From: an uncultured Alphaproteobacteria bacterium
GTDB taxonomy: Bacteria > Pseudomonadota > Alphaproteobacteria > HIMB59 > GCA-002718135
NCBI GenBank assembly: GCA_902521315.1
Contig: CABYRH010000007.1
Span: 1-64,000 of the forward strand
Length of the DNA stretch: 64,000 nt
Direction of reading: 5' to 3'
Shown here: piece after piece, positions 45,987-52,506 of the stretch
Numbering within the stretch: position 1 is the first letter of the stretch
Layout: each line of letters starts with the position of its first letter
Program-made: the position numbers and the translations under genes
The notes under the pieces: model-generated
Databases searched by the model: none
What the model saw: the letters and a program-made list of their open reading frames with translations, nothing else
Told to the model about the DNA's origin: nothing

Positions 45987-46550
45987 ATGAAATTATATCT
46001 TATTAGACATGCAGAGTCAGAAGCTAATGCAGCATCAGATTTAGATAATCCAACTTATTATTATGATGCAAGAATTACTCAAAGAGGAGTTGAGCAAGCA
46101 AAAAAATTAAATAATAGAATTAAAAATCTCAAATTTGATAATTATTTTTGTTCCCCCTTAACAAGAACATTGGAAACATTCTCTATTGTTTTTCCATCTA
46201 ATAAACCTGTAATTGAACCTTTAATAAGAGAACATTTGTACCACTCATGTGATGTAGGAAGACAACCAAAAAAATTAAAAGAAGAATTTAATGATTTTGA
46301 TTTTAATAATTTAAATGATTTTTGGTGGAATAATAACAAACCTATTAATGAAAAAAAAATTATACAAGAGTCTCACAATGATATTAAAATGAGATTAAGG
46401 TCTTTTCTACTATCTATCAAAAACCTTAATTTACAAAAAATCGTATTAGTCAGTCATGGTACATTCTTAAGTCAAATAACTGAATATATGTTGGATAACT
46501 GTGAGATATACGATTGTGAGTACAATGAGGTATACGAAAAATTATTTTAA
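45987..46550 (+). CDS. histidine-phosphatase superfamily protein
   Basis: A 187-residue phosphatase of the phosphoglycerate-mutase-like fold. The catalytic RHAE motif is at residues 7-10 (His8 is the phosphorylated residue), a second arginine is in SPLTRTLET near 56-64, and the distal VSHGTFLSQ near 154-162 holds the second His. Substrate is not visible. A TATAAT at 45975-45980 lies only six bases before the ATG, so, if it is a real -10, the message would be nearly leaderless. The gene is convergent with the creatininase-family gene at 46574 across 23 bases. Confidence 0.85.
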   Translation: MKLYLIRHAESEANAASDLDNPTYYYDARITQRGVEQAKKLNNRIKNLKFDNYFCSPLTRTLETFSIVFPSNKPVIEPLIREHLYHSCDVGRQPKKLKEEFNDFDFNNLNDFWWNNNKPINEKKIIQESHNDIKMRLRSFLLSIKNLNLQKIVLVSHGTFLSQITEYMLDNCEIYDCEYNEVYEKLF

Positions 46551-46573: not shown

Positions 46574-47341
46574 CTAAAACATCTCATTTATTATCTTATC
46601 TAATTTTTGTGTTACTCTATCAATTATTTTTTTTCCTATCTGTGCATTGGATTTTCTAGGATCTCCAATAATTCCACTTTTACTTAATTCTTTAGTTACC
46701 CAAGCTTTCTTAATATTTTTTTCATAAGAAATGGTTTTAGATGAAAAATAATCGGGAGATAATCTATGTTTAGAAATTTTAGATTGCCTAACTAGGTTTG
46801 GAAATAAATATAACATAATAGATGTTTCAAATTCTCCACCGTGATAACCAAAGTCTTTTTCTTTACTTGATATAATTCCTTTAAATTGATCAAATAAAAA
46901 ATATGTGCCTTTTACTATGTTTACCTTAAATTCTGACTTCAATTCTTTAGCAATAATATCTATATGGCTAATTTGTCCACCATGACTATTTAAAAGTAAT
47001 ATATTTTTAAATTTCAATTTACATACATTTTCTAAAATTGATAAAGAGTGCGATATAAATTCCAATGAATCAATACTTATTGTTCCTTCAAAATCTGTAT
47101 GTTCAACAGCTGAACCAAAATATATTTCAGGCATAATTAAATATTTGCTTGAATTATATTTTTTATTGAATTCTAATAATATTCCTTCAAGAATTTTTTT
47201 ATCAGTATTTAATGGAAGATGTGGACCGTGTTGTTCTATTGATGAAAATGGGAAAATTAAAACTGTTTTTCTATTTATTTTTTTAATTTCATTTGTTGTT
47301 AATTCTTCCCAAAAGTTTGTTAGCATTTTTTTATTATACAT
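46574..47341 (-). CDS. creatininase-family metal amidohydrolase (cluster member)
   Basis: A 255-residue metal-dependent amidohydrolase. Metal and active residues: Glu36 and His38 in EQHGPHLPLNTD (36-47), Asp47, the NSHGGQ motif near 117-122 and a Glu in GGEFETS near 167-173. The family includes creatininase, the mycofactocin protease MftE and the archaeal deformylase ArfB, which removes formate from a GTP-derived formamidopyrimidine. Next to RibA and RibD-C homologues, an ArfB-like deformylase role is attractive but unproven. It diverges from the dehydrogenase gene with only 13 bases between starts (an ATG five codons in is an alternative), so it probably belongs to this cluster. Confidence 0.82.
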   Translation of the reverse strand: MYNKKMLTNFWEELTTNEIKKINRKTVLIFPFSSIEQHGPHLPLNTDKKILEGILLEFNKKYNSSKYLIMPEIYFGSAVEHTDFEGTISIDSLEFISHSLSILENVCKLKFKNILLLNSHGGQISHIDIIAKELKSEFKVNIVKGTYFLFDQFKGIISSKEKDFGYHGGEFETSIMLYLFPNLVRQSKISKHRLSPDYFSSKTISYEKNIKKAWVTKELSKSGIIGDPRKSNAQIGKKIIDRVTQKLDKIINEMF

Positions 47342-47354
47342 TTATAAGTAAATT

Positions 47355-48314
47355 ATGAAATCTTATTCTTTATGGATTGATAAAAAAAAACAAGCTAAAA
47401 TTTATCAAAAAAAACTTGTTTACAATAAAAATAACAAAACAGTTTTAGTTAAAACTATTTACTCAGGTATTAGCAAGGGAACTGAAAAATTAGTTTCATC
47501 TAAAAGCGTAAGTAAGGATCAATTTGAATTAATGAAAGCCCCTTTTCAAGAAGGTTCTTTTAATTTACCTATAAAGTACGGTTATATAAATGTTGGGAAT
47601 ATTATCGATGGTCCAAGGAAATATATAAATAAAAAAATATTTAGTCTTTATCCTCATCAAGATTTATATGAAATTTCTATTCAAAATTTAATTTTTTTAC
47701 CAAAAGGAAATTTGAGAAAATATGTTCTAACTGCAAATATGGAAACAGCAATTAATATCTTTTGGGACGCACAATCTAAAAGTAATAACAAAATTCTAAT
47801 TGTAGGACTTGGCTCTGTAGGATTATTAACTGCATTTGTTTTTAAAATTAATGGATATAAAAATGTTTATGTTTTTGATAATAATAAAAATAAAAGAAAA
47901 ATTGCCAACTATTTAGGATTAAATTTTATTGATATAAGAAAGATTGAGAAAATAGATGTAGCAATAAACACTACAGCTAATTATAAAGTTTTAAATTCTT
48001 TAATGGAAAAATTATCTATCGAAGGAAAAATAGTAGAAGCTAGTTGGTATGGTAAAAATAAAGGAGAAGTTGCCTTAGGTGGGTATTTTCATTCTAAAAG
48101 ATTAAAAATTATTAGCTCACAGGTATCTAAAATACCAAAATACATGAAAAATAAATATGATTTTGAGGGGAGATTAAAATTAGCAATTAAATCTTTAAAA
48201 AATTCAAAATTAGAAAAATTAATTACTAGTGAAAGTAATTTTTTTGATTTAGAAAAAGATTACTATAAAATCCTTCAAAATAAGGATACAGTAATGCATC
48301 TAGTTAAATATTAA
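47355..48314 (+). CDS. MDR-type dehydrogenase of the pterin-like cluster
   Basis: A 319-residue medium-chain dehydrogenase with a GroES-like N-terminal half and Rossmann domain LIVGLGSVGLL near residues 149-159. The YSGISKGTEKLV segment near 36-47 and the IKYGYINVGNI segment near 73-83 resemble the group containing BchC and cluster-associated zinc-binding dehydrogenases; canonical Cys/His zinc ligands are not visible, so zinc dependence is doubtful. It is the first of four rightward genes with gaps of 2 bases or overlaps, followed by the PTPS homologue. Substrate unknown; a keto or hydroxy side chain of a pterin is a guess. Confidence 0.75.
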   Translation: MKSYSLWIDKKKQAKIYQKKLVYNKNNKTVLVKTIYSGISKGTEKLVSSKSVSKDQFELMKAPFQEGSFNLPIKYGYINVGNIIDGPRKYINKKIFSLYPHQDLYEISIQNLIFLPKGNLRKYVLTANMETAINIFWDAQSKSNNKILIVGLGSVGLLTAFVFKINGYKNVYVFDNNKNKRKIANYLGLNFIDIRKIEKIDVAINTTANYKVLNSLMEKLSIEGKIVEASWYGKNKGEVALGGYFHSKRLKIISSQVSKIPKYMKNKYDFEGRLKLAIKSLKNSKLEKLITSESNFFDLEKDYYKILQNKDTVMHLVKY

Positions 48315-48316
48315 TT

Positions 48317-48715
48317 ATGTATTCGATAAAAGTAAGAGAAAATATTCTAATAGCTCATTCTTTACCTGGAGAAGTATTTGGACCAGCCCAAAATATGCAT
48401 GGAGCTACATATTTAGTAGATGCAGAATTTTTCACTGATAAACTTAACAAATACAATATAATTATGGATTTAGGAATAGTGTCCACGACACTAAAAGATA
48501 TTCTCAAAATATATAATTATCAAAATTTAGATGAGATTGATGAATTTAAGGGAAAAATTACATCTACAGAGTTTTTAGCAGAGGATATATGCAATAAGAT
48601 CTTGAATAGACTAAGAAATGAATTCTCTGAAGATTACAAATCTTTAAAAAAAATTAAAATAACCTTGCAAGAATCAAATGTTGCATGGGCATCATATGAA
48701 AAAGAGGTTATCTAA
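48317..48715 (+). CDS. atypical 6-pyruvoyltetrahydropterin synthase / QueD homologue
   Basis: A 132-residue T-fold protein of the PTPS/QueD family. Zinc ligands His14 and His28 are present, but the second His of the HxH pair is Ala30 (MHGATY), the catalytic Cys of QueD in this loop is absent, and the later Asp-His pair aligns by eye with Asn-Tyr (near residues 66-72). The Glu in TLQESN near 114-119, which binds the pterin ring, is kept. So substrate binding may remain while the chemistry differs. From memory, alphaproteobacterial relatives with the same AHSL/FGPAQ/HGATY text exist, which argues against decay. It overlaps the glycosyltransferase by 20 bases. Confidence 0.78.
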   Translation: MYSIKVRENILIAHSLPGEVFGPAQNMHGATYLVDAEFFTDKLNKYNIIMDLGIVSTTLKDILKIYNYQNLDEIDEFKGKITSTEFLAEDICNKILNRLRNEFSEDYKSLKKIKITLQESNVAWASYEKEVI

Positions 48716-49742
48716 AAATAAATCTTATATTTATTTTGTTTATCCAGGAAATATTAATGCAAAAACTGGAGGATATATTTATGAAAAAAATATCCTAGAA
48801 TATGCAAAGATAAGGGATATAAATATTAGACCAATTGCGCTAAGTGAAAACTATCCTTTTCCTACAAATAACGATATAAAATATTTTTTAAAAATTTTAG
48901 ATAAAATTGATCCTGACTCTAAAATTATTATAGATGGATTAGCTTTAGAAGGAATGTATTCCATTTTTAAAAAAATACTTACTTATAATGTTATCGCGCT
49001 AATACATCATCCTTTATATCTTGAATTTAAAGGTCAAAGGTCAAAAAAATTCTTAAGATTAGAAAAAGAAAATTTCAAAAAAATAAATAAATTTATTGTT
49101 ACATCTAAAAATACAAAAAATTTATTAATAAATGAATTTAAGGTAATAAAAAATAAAATTTCTGTGGTTGAACCTGGTATAGAAAGACTAGCAAATTATA
49201 ATTTAAAAAATAATAGTAAAATTCATTTTTTAACATGTGGAAGTATAATAAATAGAAAAAATTATCTATTTTTATTAAAAGTTTTAAAGCCTTTAGATAA
49301 TTTTATTTTAGAAATTGTTGGTGATACTACAAGAGATATAGGTTATTACAAAAAACTCAAAAAATTTATTTCTAAAAATTCAATGAACAAAAAAATAATA
49401 TTTCACGGCACTATTTCAGATACAAAATTAGCAAAATTATATTCTAAAACAGATTGTTACATTTCGGTAAGTAAATATGAAGGTTTTGGAATGTCTTTAG
49501 CAAATGCATTAATAATTAAAAAGCCAATTATAACCTTTTTTACAAATACTATCTTAAATACACTAGGAAAAAAGGGTGTTATTTATTTCAAAAAATTTGA
49601 AGTAAATGATCTTAGAAATATAATTATTAAAAATATATTAAATAAAAAAAATTTTAATAAACTAAATATTGATATTCAAAAAAATAAAAGGTATCTTCTT
49701 ACTCCCCTAGAGTCAGCTAAGAAATTTGTTAAATTAATTTAA
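48696..49742 (+). CDS. GT4-type glycosyltransferase of the pterin-like cluster
   Basis: A 348-residue GT-B glycosyltransferase. The acceptor domain opens with YFVYPGNINAKTGGYIYEKN near residues 13-32, and the nucleotide-sugar domain has the VEPGIERL joint near 151-158 and the donor motif SKYEGFGMSLANAL near 254-267 (E-x-F-G type). I prefer the ATG at 48696 over one 18 bases upstream; both overlap the PTPS gene. It is not next to other polysaccharide genes, so a small-molecule acceptor made by this cluster fits better than a lipid or wall target (inference). One base separates it from the methyltransferase. Confidence 0.8.
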   Translation: MKKRLSKNKSYIYFVYPGNINAKTGGYIYEKNILEYAKIRDINIRPIALSENYPFPTNNDIKYFLKILDKIDPDSKIIIDGLALEGMYSIFKKILTYNVIALIHHPLYLEFKGQRSKKFLRLEKENFKKINKFIVTSKNTKNLLINEFKVIKNKISVVEPGIERLANYNLKNNSKIHFLTCGSIINRKNYLFLLKVLKPLDNFILEIVGDTTRDIGYYKKLKKFISKNSMNKKIIFHGTISDTKLAKLYSKTDCYISVSKYEGFGMSLANALIIKKPIITFFTNTILNTLGKKGVIYFKKFEVNDLRNIIIKNILNKKNFNKLNIDIQKNKRYLLTPLESAKKFVKLI

Positions 49743-49743
49743 T

Positions 49744-50532
49744 ATGCATGAATTTCAAAATAAATGGTTAAATCTTAGAGAAAATGTCGATAGAAATTCA
49801 AGAAACAAAAGAATACTATATTTAATTAATAAATTTTTTAAAAATAAAAAAAATATTAGAATTGTTGACTTAGGCTCAGGTGCTGGATCTAATTATAGAT
49901 TTCTTAAGTCACGACTATTAAATAATCAATATTGGTCTTTTGTAGACATATCACATCAATCAACAAATTATTTTAAAAAAAATATAAAATTATCGTCTAA
50001 AATAAAAAAAACTAATTTTAAAATTGTTGATGTAATTAATAATTTAGAAAAAATAAATTTTAATAATTATAATTTAGTTACTGGATCTGCTTTTTTAGAT
50101 ATTCTTCCAAAAACATGGTTTAAAAATTTTTATAAATTAAATGTTGATACAGAAATAGTCTACTTTGCCTTAAATTATAACGGTAATTTTAAATTTTTTC
50201 CAAAGCACAAGGATAATAAAAGAATTCTTAATATTTTTAATAAAGATCAAAAATCTGACAAAGGAATAGGGGAATTGGCCGTTGGACCAGATTGCACTGA
50301 ATTAATAAATAAAGTATTTAAAAGAACTCACAAAACATATGTTTTTGATTCTACATGGGATGTTAGTCAAAATTATGAATTTCAAATTTATTTTTTAAAT
50401 TTTTGTAGAGAAATTATTAAAAAAAATAAACTTAACTTTGATGATTGGTTAAAATTTCGTTTAAAAAGTATTAAAGAAAAAAATTCTAGATTTATTTTAA
50501 ATAATACAGATTTTTTAGCTATTAAGAAATAA
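49744..50532 (+). CDS. class I SAM-dependent methyltransferase of the pterin-like cluster
   Basis: A 262-residue methyltransferase. Motif I is IVDLGSGAGSN at 40-50, followed by VDIS near 70-73, and motif IV-like text is LVTGSAFLDILP near 110-121. The N-terminal FQNKWLNLRENVDRNSRN (residues 4-21) is a typical lead for the small-molecule group that often follows the glycosyltransferase in such clusters. The acceptor (N, O or C) is not visible. It ends 18 bases inside the convergent RibD-C gene. Confidence 0.78.
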   Translation: MHEFQNKWLNLRENVDRNSRNKRILYLINKFFKNKKNIRIVDLGSGAGSNYRFLKSRLLNNQYWSFVDISHQSTNYFKKNIKLSSKIKKTNFKIVDVINNLEKINFNNYNLVTGSAFLDILPKTWFKNFYKLNVDTEIVYFALNYNGNFKFFPKHKDNKRILNIFNKDQKSDKGIGELAVGPDCTELINKVFKRTHKTYVFDSTWDVSQNYEFQIYFLNFCREIIKKNKLNFDDWLKFRLKSIKEKNSRFILNNTDFLAIKK

Positions 50533-51348
50533 ATTAACAATAATTTCATTTTCTAATTCATTAAAATTATGTTTGGGTCTAATAGCTTTATTGAGATTTG
50601 AAATTTCTTTTAAATTTAATGAATTAATTCCAGAGCCTATTAATATTGGGGCAATCATAAATTGAAGAATATCAATATATTTATTATTTATTAATTCTGA
50701 AATAGTTTTTGATCCTCCCTCTACTAAAATTTTTTTGTATTTAAGTTTTTTTATTTGCATAATAAAGTTTTTCGTAAAATTTTTTTCTTTTAATCTTATT
50801 ATTGTTGAATTATTCAATCTAATATTTTTATTACTTTTTGTAAAAATTATATTTTCATTACCGTCATTAAATATTTTATATTTGTTATTTAGCGAAAGAC
50901 TGCCATCGATAATAATTCTTTTTGGATTTGTGCCCTTTATTTTTCTTGTTGTTAATAGAGGATCGTCTTTTTTAATGGTATTTGAGCCTACAATAATTGC
51001 ATCACTGATACTTCGTAAACAATGTAGATAAATAATACTCTTGGGATTATTTATGTAATGTGAATTACCATTATTTAATGCAATTCTACCATCAATACTT
51101 TGTCCTATTTGAGCTATAACTAATTTTTTGTTTTTTCTTAATATTGGGAGAAGGATATTTAAGATTGATTGATAAAATTTACTTATATTAACTTTAGATT
51201 CCAGATTATTATTTTTTATGTAAAAATTACTTTTTCTTTTTGATGACAAAGAAATACTATTTTTTTTAACCAATAAATATAAATCACTATTCTTTTTAGA
51301 ATTTTTTATAAAATCTAGTAAAATTCCTATATTTTTAGATGTAATCAT
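50515..51348 (-). CDS. RibD C-terminal-type pyrimidine reductase without deaminase domain
   Basis: A 277-residue protein whose last about 200 residues are the RibD_C/DHFR-like reductase, with AQIGQSIDGRIAL near 79-91, the LRSISDAIIVGSNTIKKDDP segment near 110-129 and the NADPH loop VEGGSKTISEL near 209-219. RibD_C reduces the ribose side chain of the GTP-derived diaminopyrimidine. The usual N-terminal cytidine-deaminase domain is missing; residues 1-75 are an unrecognised lysine- and serine-rich lead. Its start codon lies directly against the ribA gene region on the opposite strand. Either a stand-alone riboflavin reductase or a paralogue dedicated to this cluster. Confidence 0.82.
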   Translation of the reverse strand: MITSKNIGILLDFIKNSKKNSDLYLLVKKNSISLSSKRKSNFYIKNNNLESKVNISKFYQSILNILLPILRKNKKLVIAQIGQSIDGRIALNNGNSHYINNPKSIIYLHCLRSISDAIIVGSNTIKKDDPLLTTRKIKGTNPKRIIIDGSLSLNNKYKIFNDGNENIIFTKSNKNIRLNNSTIIRLKEKNFTKNFIMQIKKLKYKKILVEGGSKTISELINNKYIDILQFMIAPILIGSGINSLNLKEISNLNKAIRPKHNFNELENEIIVNLFLNS

Positions 51349-51384
51349 TTGTTTTTATTTCAATTATATCTATATAAAGTTTTC

Positions 51385-52506
51385 ATGAGTTTCAAATCTA
51401 ATACAGGAACTATAATAGATAGGGCAATTAACGAACTCAGGACCGGAAGACCCTTAATAATTCAAAATAACAAGGAATATTGGATGTTCTTTAATATAGA
51501 GCATTCCCAAAGTAAAATTTTTAATCAATTCAATAAGCATTTAATTGATGAAAAATATCTACTTATTACTAAACAAAAAGCTCAATCAATTTTTAATAAG
51601 AATATTAAAAGTAATATTTATTTTGAGATAAATCCCAAAACAGATGTAAATCAAATAATAAATTTGTTTGTCAATCCTCTTAGCAATAATAAAGTAATTA
51701 AATTTACCAATATTAAAAAATTCAAATCTAAAAATTTTCATAATGTTTGTATCGATCTATCAAAAAATGCTAAAATGATACCATCGCTAGTTTTTAAAAA
51801 AATTAATAAAAAATATTACAAAAATATAAATGAATTTGGATTTAAGAATGGAATTTTAATATTTGATTACAAAGATTTATTGAAGCAAAATGAATTAATT
51901 TGTGAAAGTATTAAATTAGTTTCTAGTGCAAAAGTTCCACTACCAAAAAACGAAAATTCTAATTTTAAAATATTTAAATCATATATTGGATCTGATAAAC
52001 ATGTAGCTATAATTGTTAATCCAAAAAAAATAAATAAAAAATCTGTTAATTTAAGAATACATTCAGCTTGTTTTACAGGTGATATTTTTCATTCTTTAAA
52101 ATGTGATTGTGGTGAACAATTAAATCAATCAATCAATTACATGGTTAGAAATAATGGTGGAATTATATTATATTTAGAACAAGAAGGTAGGGGAATAGGA
52201 TTAGCTAATAAAATGAGAGCTTATTCTCTTCAAGCAAGGGGTATGGATACAATAGATGCAGATCATAATATTGGTTTTTTAGATGATGAAAGAGATTTTA
52301 ATATTGCAGCTAGAATACTGAAATTATTAAAAATAAATAAAGTTAATCTTATTACAAACAACAAAAATAAAATTAATTCTATTAAGAAAGCTGGAATTAA
52401 AGTCGAAAATCAAATAAATACAAAGCCAACATTAAATAAATTTAATAAAAATTATTTTAAAACAAGAGTTAAAAAAGCTGGGTACGGTCTTAAACTAGTA
52501 GTATAA
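51385..52506 (+). CDS. ribA: GTP cyclohydrolase II
   Basis: Opens the imidazole ring of GTP, releasing formate and pyrophosphate, to give the diaminopyrimidine precursor. Zinc ligands are in HSACFTGDIFHSLKCDCGEQ near residues 219-238, and the catalytic and GTP-binding EQEGRGIGLANK stretch near 255-266 with the GMDTIDAD element is intact. I start at the ATG at 51385; a TTG frame opening 36 bases upstream abuts the RibD-C start. The about 190-residue N-terminal part (RAINELRTGRP) is the long alphaproteobacterial form, not a working RibB domain as far as I see. It diverges from the reductase gene and ends two bases before prxQ. May serve riboflavin, the cluster, or both. Confidence 0.92.
   Translation: MSFKSNTGTIIDRAINELRTGRPLIIQNNKEYWMFFNIEHSQSKIFNQFNKHLIDEKYLLITKQKAQSIFNKNIKSNIYFEINPKTDVNQIINLFVNPLSNNKVIKFTNIKKFKSKNFHNVCIDLSKNAKMIPSLVFKKINKKYYKNINEFGFKNGILIFDYKDLLKQNELICESIKLVSSAKVPLPKNENSNFKIFKSYIGSDKHVAIIVNPKKINKKSVNLRIHSACFTGDIFHSLKCDCGEQLNQSINYMVRNNGGIILYLEQEGRGIGLANKMRAYSLQARGMDTIDADHNIGFLDDERDFNIAARILKLLKINKVNLITNNKNKINSIKKAGIKVENQINTKPTLNKFNKNYFKTRVKKAGYGLKLVV

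Follow-up and report, generated by a model that had tools for sequence, protein, structure and literature searches.

In this work we examined seven tightly packed genes (positions 46574-52506) in a 64,000-nucleotide stretch of DNA, hereafter the window, which forms bases 1-64000 of contig 7 in the genome of an uncultured alphaproteobacterium (1.54 Mb in 35 contigs, 87% complete). The cluster probably directs a pterin-like biosynthesis from guanosine triphosphate (GTP) with an unfamiliar gene set, and we lean, if not strongly, to the view that it is a dedicated pathway diverting GTP to make a small pterin-like molecule that is methylated and glycosylated. This gives a concrete hypothesis, that of a pterin made via GTP cyclohydrolase II (GCH II) and not GCH I, with a membrane partner in many lineages. 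The marker protein of the cluster, which has the fold of 6-pyruvoyltetrahydropterin synthase (PTPS), was found in some 7% of the Pseudomonadota genomes sampled (27 of 398 evenly drawn, our own included, at E 1e-25 or better) and in at least three further phyla, yet we found no product described. An earlier description, made from the letters alone (the sequence-only reading), had listed seven packed genes with their order, strands and domains, all of which are borne out by the open reading frames (ORFs), by Pfam and NCBIfam profiles and by structure models. Among named records the nearest are genomes that bear the labels uncultured Alphaproteobacteria bacterium or 'Pelagibacteraceae bacterium AG-337-I02'; where a 20-kb stretch aligns with them, DNA identity is 94-97%. 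We refer to this group as the HIMB59-type lineage, or the window's lineage.

The gene set is conserved well beyond the window. The cluster GCH II is present in 44 of the 61 genomes searched, 23 of 37 in the same genus (window included) and 21 of 24 in a second family, as counted at 60% identity or more with partial copies at contig ends included and with many incomplete assemblies among the genomes. The seven-gene order is held at 45-72% protein identity amid different outer neighbours. The genes are under purifying selection: ratios of nonsynonymous to synonymous substitution (dN/dS) are 0.00-0.18 for all seven against one relative (L034) and 0.04-0.20 for six against another (L035), the dehydrogenase gene being omitted there as it is split over two frames (L035:7418-8373, genome G015), by assembly error or decay. 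A PTPS alignment scan with one genome per species over 84,980 species gave at least 589 relatives. We examined 97 loci, several of them cut by contig ends: the best 80 of these relatives, eight plasmid loci and nine regions from relatives; seven comparator loci (L043-L049), of which L049 holds the cluster GCH II alone at a contig end, stand outside this count. PTPS was found in 96 of the 97, the medium-chain dehydrogenase/reductase (MDR) in 92, the GT4 glycosyltransferase in 90, the methyltransferase in 89, GCH II in 63, creatininase in 57 and RibD_C in 56. The best 80 include 24 Streptomyces, which biases these counts to close, redundant loci, and the gene-family hidden Markov models were built from the same loci; a cleaner test is the sample of 26 other neighbourhoods from the evenly drawn Pseudomonadota with its control. 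In this sample MDR is found at 26 loci, GT4 at 25, the methyltransferase at 24 (plus one 24-bit match), RibD_C at 22 and creatininase at 6. As controls from these genomes, ten neighbourhoods of other PTPS/QueD genes (out of 18; the six best-scoring canonical and four weaker ones) showed MDR, GT4, methyltransferase, RibD_C, creatininase and the membrane module described below at 0 of 10, and one weak GCH II match (63 bits). The comparison of these neighbourhoods with the controls supports the earlier proposal that this is a dedicated GTP-derived cluster and not a chance grouping. Similar groupings, which the sequence-only reading had mentioned for other alphaproteobacteria, occur in the Pseudomonadota sample and beyond, related clusters being present in Actinomycetota, Bacteroidota and Gemmatimonadota. 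Gene fusions, of a kind that usually joins enzymes of neighbouring steps, occur as well, as seen in mechanically called ORFs. GT4 and methyltransferase form a single ORF in ten loci: six belong to the 26-genome sample and the rest come from Bacteroidota, Gemmatimonadota, Streptomyces and a Rhodovulum-labelled metagenome-assembled genome (MAG), and in a Gemmatimonadales MAG (L090:7709-9517, minus strand) one 603-amino acid (AA) frame joins creatininase (63-300) to RibD_C (357-590), which supports placing the creatininase homologue beside an early pyrimidine reduction.

The cluster is separate from riboflavin synthesis. The source genome encodes three proteins with a GCH II domain: the cluster copy, a contig 4 RibA of 196 AA, and a RibBA on contig 1, where a rib operon with Pfam-confirmed families encodes a 360-AA RibD with its deaminase domain, RibE, RibBA and RibH. 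The second ribA or ribBA and the complete ribD for which the sequence-only reading had suggested a check elsewhere in the genome are thus present, and a duplication of riboflavin synthesis is rejected on account of this complete operon and separate RibA on other contigs. With these genes elsewhere and the neighbourhood conserved, the idea of chance plus riboflavin synthesis falls away. The genome's own RibBA (L046:8420-9553, minus strand) has an intact RibB half (270 bits), but in its GCH II half D, N and F stand in place of all three zinc cysteines; judging from these residues, it is probably the contig 4 RibA that carries out the housekeeping GTP step.

The PTPS-fold protein of the cluster (132 AA; 48317-48715, plus strand; PTPS 74.5 bits) is the sole PF01242 match found in this 87% complete genome. 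Only one close relative has a solved structure, SCO6650 of Streptomyces coelicolor (3d7j, entered as an uncharacterised protein), which scores 120 bits by sequence and 204 with a profile. Across 13 sequences of this SCO6650 subfamily 28 columns are invariant, FGPAQ and HGAT among them, and the window protein carries its marks H14, A24, HGAT, Y68, NLD and E119. In alignment with the solved chains 1b66 and 2g64, A24, HGA and N67-Y68 stand in place of the catalytic Cys, HGH and Asp-His; Tyr68 is invariant in the 13 relatives and the preceding (Asp) position is variable. T84, E85 and E119 are retained, E119 in 32 of 32 sequences. In the PTPS family, from which these residue roles are taken, a conserved Glu anchors the pterin. 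The protein is thus, by alignment, devoid of the known PTPS/QueD catalytic residues while keeping the predicted pterin-anchor Glu, a correction to the earlier reading, which had noted only that PTPS folds act on pterins. Many plasmid records name members of this subfamily 6-carboxytetrahydropterin synthase, an annotation that should be corrected since the subfamily lacks the catalytic residues. The PTPS proteins of a Rhodomicrobium locus (L099; 204 bits) and of an S. anthocyanicus plasmid (L181; 196 bits) may function on their own or with partners encoded at a distance.

GCH II and RibD_C are the two riboflavin-type enzymes of the cluster. GCH II (51349-52506, plus strand; GCH II 165 bits) has a degenerate N-terminal domain of the DHBP-synthase fold. 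It keeps the zinc cysteines 241, 252 and 254, Tyr292, Asp313 and Arg315, which make up the catalytic set for GTP ring opening, its predicted activity. Its model (predicted local distance difference test, pLDDT, 82.9) matches 2bz0, a GCH II, and RibB structures in Foldseek. The N-terminal half matches many RibB chains (E 3e-6 to 7e-4) and gives no PF00926 match, and because of this combination we read it as a dead RibB domain. As annotated from TTG 51349 the protein has 385 AA; ATG 51385 corresponds to M13, which is nearly invariant in 13 relatives, and 11 of 35 rows with Tyr at position 292 are 372-373 AA long, which suggests that ATG 51385 is probably the true start. The spacings along the cluster are 13, 2, -38, 1, -18 and 0 bp, so that the gaps of 0-13 bases or overlaps reported earlier stand as annotated, except that the 0 bp ahead of GCH II probably stems from the annotated start codon, the gap being more likely 36 bp. 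Five phage records match parts of the GCH II half only. At the Tyr292 position the 63 cluster GCH II rows have Tyr (35), Met (24), His (3) or Leu (1). A restriction of creatininase to the Met, formyl-releasing type of GCH II was considered and rejected, as Tyr-type clusters carry it too: the gene is in the locus for 27 of 27 Met/His rows and 24 of 35 Tyr rows (22 of these from the window's lineage), and in the 26-genome sample for 4 of the 11 loci with GCH II, all of Tyr type.

The RibD_C reductase (277 AA; 50515-51348, minus strand; RibD_C 107 bits) has no deaminase domain and carries Gln80. The earlier assignment, reduction of a ribosyl side chain, agrees with the family domain, but Gln80 departs from bacterial RibD at the substrate site. 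In cluster rows, taken at 200 bits or more and with only three rows of the window's lineage, position 80 is Gln in 51 of 55 and His in 4, and position 83 is Gln in all 55. Read from alignments, the equivalent of position 80 is Lys in the genome's own RibD, in 2hxv and in 9no2, and Asn in 2azn, a named putative uracil-type reductase, and 6p8c, a named diaminopyrimidine reductase. We take 2azn to be the archaeal enzyme that works before deamination, and the RibD Lys to be K151 of B. subtilis RibG, which presumably touches the C2 carbonyl of the deaminated substrate. An amide at this position therefore suggests a C2 amino group, and thus a substrate that would retain its 2-amino group and be pterin-like, not flavin-like.

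The four other genes fit a small-molecule pathway with less precise assignments. The creatininase-family amidohydrolase (255 AA; 46574-47341, minus strand; PF02633, 187 bits) stays below all NCBIfam cut-offs, with MftE best (104 bits, cut-off 172), then creatininase (79) and ArfB (31). Its residues E36, H38, D47, H120 and E172, which we take to be metal ligands, are kept in 15 of 15 cluster members, and the protein is a candidate formamidase with a possible BrbF/ArfB-like role. The MDR-superfamily dehydrogenase (319 AA; 47355-48314, plus strand) is BchC-like, with best matches under curated cut-offs (Glu_dehyd_C 28 bits, ADH_zinc_N 25 bits, NCBIfam BchC 51 bits) and a profile that weakly matches alcohol and polyol dehydrogenases. 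The GT4-family glycosyltransferase (354 AA; 48678-49742, plus strand; GT4 domain 67 bits) overlaps the PTPS gene by 38 bp. Its residue 276, presumably the position of the second Glu of the EX7E motif, differs by lineage: all 22 readable rows from the window's lineage carry Asn there, and all 65 other rows carry Glu. The class I S-adenosylmethionine-dependent methyltransferase (262 AA; 49744-50532, plus strand) has a weak Pfam MTS match, the conserved residues D42, G44, G46 and G48, and an AlphaFold2 model (pLDDT 94.7) whose Foldseek matches include 3mgg (E 6.5e-13) and many other methyltransferases; this fold search returned only generic small-molecule methyltransferases and pointed to no acceptor.

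In many other lineages membrane-lipid and glycan enzymes lie beside the cluster, an association that was not visible from the window. Outside the window's lineage a CDP-alcohol phosphatidyltransferase is found in 51 of 71 loci and the flippase-like LPG_synthase_TM in 44 of 71, counts in which Streptomyces weighs heavily; among 34 non-Streptomyces loci with full flanks 22 have the former and 17 the latter, in every case together with the phosphatidyltransferase. Both genes are concentrated at distances of up to 5 kb from the PTPS gene, with densities in successive 2.5-kb bins of 114.5, 24.6, 9.9 and 0 per Mb for the phosphatidyltransferase and of 28.6, 98.3, 3.3 and 3.9 per Mb for LPG_synthase_TM. 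An OpgH/MdoH-type glycosyltransferase takes the neighbouring slot in other loci. Under a 3.2-kb rule applied to 121 loci, 56 have the phosphatidyltransferase, 18 MdoH, none both and 23 neither, the remaining 24 belonging to the window's lineage, also with neither; with wider limits 3 of 97 and 4 of 26 loci contain both. The 26-genome sample gives 12 for the phosphatidyltransferase, 11 for LPG_synthase_TM, 12 for the MdoH-type GT2 and 7 for cytochrome b561, and the membrane partner is not universal, 6 of the 26 lacking both the CDP-alcohol transferase and MdoH. On a PTPS tree of 88 rows and 132 columns, in which 32 of 85 inner branches are open, well-supported branches force at least five label changes for the phosphatidyltransferase and at least seven for MdoH, and the window's lineage forms a single group (100/100). 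The membrane module was found in 0 of 26 loci of this lineage, and in the source genome the two PF01066 proteins reach only 28 and 15 bits with the cluster profile, and PF03706 has no match. Because its lineage has no membrane module, the window cluster is a reduced and apparently soluble variant. The lineage with Asn for Glu276 in GT4 is this same lineage. A cytochrome b561 gene is found close to the cluster in 14 of the 71 loci from other lineages (for example L050, L053, L056, L084, L086, L089 and L106), hinting at redox chemistry.

From these assignments we infer a pathway in all its reactions, their order and its product, the last being compatible with the genes and in line with the methylated, glycosylated pterin or diaminopyrimidine proposed earlier. 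GCH II would open GTP to 2,5-diamino-6-(phosphoribosylamino)pyrimidinone. The creatininase homologue would strip the formyl group wherever a formylated form is released, a step that would be obligatory in the Tyr-to-Met Streptomyces type and auxiliary here. The RibD_C paralogue would convert the ribosyl to a ribityl chain without prior deamination, so that the 2-amino group stays. The BchC-like MDR could then re-oxidise the chain; oxidation of the 2'-hydroxyl is the appealing option, since a ketone there would condense with the 5-amino group and yield a 6-substituted dihydropterin, and re-oxidation with closure would do in two steps what the Amadori step of GCH I achieves. The PTPS fold, being catalytically dead, may bind and orient the pterin or pyrimidine, and the methyltransferase and GT4 would decorate the product last. 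In many other lineages a CDP-alcohol phosphatidyltransferase with the flippase-like protein, or an OpgH-type GT2, might act on or export the product; since the membrane module is missing in the ocean lineage, the product there is probably a soluble glycoside. This chain would give every gene a job, with family precedent for the first two steps only. More speculatively, and with decided reservations on our part, the clusters could define a new class of membrane- or envelope-linked bacterial pterins that retain the 2-amino group, made from GTP by GCH II, reduction and re-oxidation in place of GCH I, methylated and glycosylated, attached to a phospholipid and flipped or coupled to an OpgH-like glucan synthase in many lineages, possibly serving as membrane redox pterins beside cytochrome b561, with the ocean lineage having the unanchored soluble form. 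A histidine-phosphatase gene lies directly upstream of the cluster in the window (45987-46550) and directly downstream of GCH II in three divergent relatives (L036, L037, L038; partial in L040), and because of these positions it may belong to the pathway as its phosphatase. An Rfam scan of the region found no riboswitch, the sole match being a miRNA at chance level (E 0.22).

Several observations weigh against this pathway. GCH II, its presumed entry enzyme, is near only 11 of the 26 sampled PTPS genes, and the subfamily PTPS genes of Rhodomicrobium (L099, with an MDR score of 14 bits) and of the S. anthocyanicus plasmid (L181) have no partner genes nearby. One genome of the same order (G037, a single contig, 99% complete) has no cluster GCH II, so this gene is dispensable within the order. 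RibD_C is near only 4 of 21 full-flank Streptomyces clusters, hence ribityl formation is either not universal or supplied elsewhere. The formyl logic leaves creatininase unexplained at Tyr-type clusters, the window included, the GT4 of the window's lineage lacks the second EX7E Glu, and no specific reaction is tied to the MDR or the PTPS-fold protein.

The loss of the PTPS catalytic residues and the absence of a known ring-closing enzyme (RibH or GCH I) from the seven genes would also suit a ribityl-diaminopyrimidine glycoside or another non-pterin guanine-derived compound, in which the PTPS fold would only bind the 2-amino-4-oxo pyrimidine and no second ring would form. Going by their families, GCH II and RibD_C alone would yield such a pyrimidine. 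Diaminopyrimidines are, however, prone to oxidation, and the MDR, the most constant partner (26 of 26), would be left without an obvious role, so that we judge this product unlikely. A second riboflavin pathway, or one to a flavin or lumazine analogue, would account for the riboflavin-type GCH II and RibD_C, but the seven genes include no deaminase domain, RibE or RibH, the N-terminal domain of GCH II has no PF00926 match, position 80 is Gln and not Lys, and the full riboflavin set is elsewhere; this makes it quite improbable. A queuosine or 7-deazaguanine-type pathway with the PTPS-fold protein as QueD has the homology and a weak QueD score on its side (37 bits, cut-off 89); we rejected this function, and consider such a pathway very improbable, since the catalytic Cys, HGH and Asp-His are gone and MDR, GT4, methyltransferase and RibD_C are found at 0 of 10 other PTPS/QueD neighbourhoods. 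That riboflavin paralogues came to lie beside unrelated genes by chance, as tight packing in a small genome might bring about, is hardly credible and was rejected in view of the conservation across phyla and against controls, the purifying selection and the fusions.

A text search of a literature that leaves most subscription journals outside its coverage found nothing on this cluster or its product, and the earlier statement that no characterised pathway has this gene set holds in so far as we found no described product; it has to be amended in that the locus type was glimpsed before, as seen below. The mycofactocin cluster also has a glycosyltransferase and dehydrogenases, and it shares with ours a creatininase homologue, for which MftE is the best NCBIfam match; in contrast, that match is below the cut-off, and a scan of ten proteins in or beside our cluster, which did not cover short precursor peptides, gave no radical SAM protein. 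The pterin glycosides of cyanobacteria and Chlorobium, which are made through GCH I, PTPS and sepiapterin reductase, resemble the proposed product in that it would also be a glycosylated pterin, but the cluster has GCH II and a dead PTPS instead. The Chlorobium pteridine glycosyltransferase is described as GT-1- and AviGT-4-like, and pteridine glycosyltransferases act on tetrahydrobiopterin, biopterin and neopterin (PMC5683033). A 2026 review of bacterial pterin signalling mentions cyanobacterial pterin glycosides, and a search of it for the terms 'gene cluster', 'GTP cyclohydrolase II' and 'PTPS' gave none of them (PMC13259868). With the riboflavin pathway (RibA, RibD, ArfB/BrbF) the cluster has in common GCH II, a RibD-type reductase and a creatininase-family protein and could share early intermediates; it differs by having no deaminase, lumazine synthase or riboflavin synthase, by its degenerate RibB and by the extra MDR, PTPS fold, GT4 and methyltransferase. 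For the creatininase-like BrbF of Sinorhizobium and Brucella, formamidase activity on the formylated GCH II intermediate is proven (PMC9478397). In Streptomyces this locus type was partly glimpsed before, and two relatives of cluster proteins have been studied. In S. coelicolor SCO6650 belongs to the same PTPS subfamily, and a GCH II, SCO6655, is only five locus numbers from it. SCO6655 reportedly releases the formylated pyrimidine only, and SCO6650 is said to have neither PTPS activity nor zinc. One paper cites changed GCH II activities among three isogenes of Streptomyces (PMC3509567), and a metabolic-switch study lists SCO6655 as GCH II in a table, most genes of which are said to rise in stationary phase (PMC2853524). 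In other Streptomyces all 21 full-flank clusters hold MDR, PTPS, GT4, methyltransferase, creatininase and GCH II; they differ from the window cluster in that GCH II is short, with Met for Tyr292 in all 23 Streptomyces rows with GCH II, RibD_C is nearby in 4 of 21, and the CDP-alcohol phosphatidyltransferase and LPG_synthase_TM accompany the cluster in 21 of 21.

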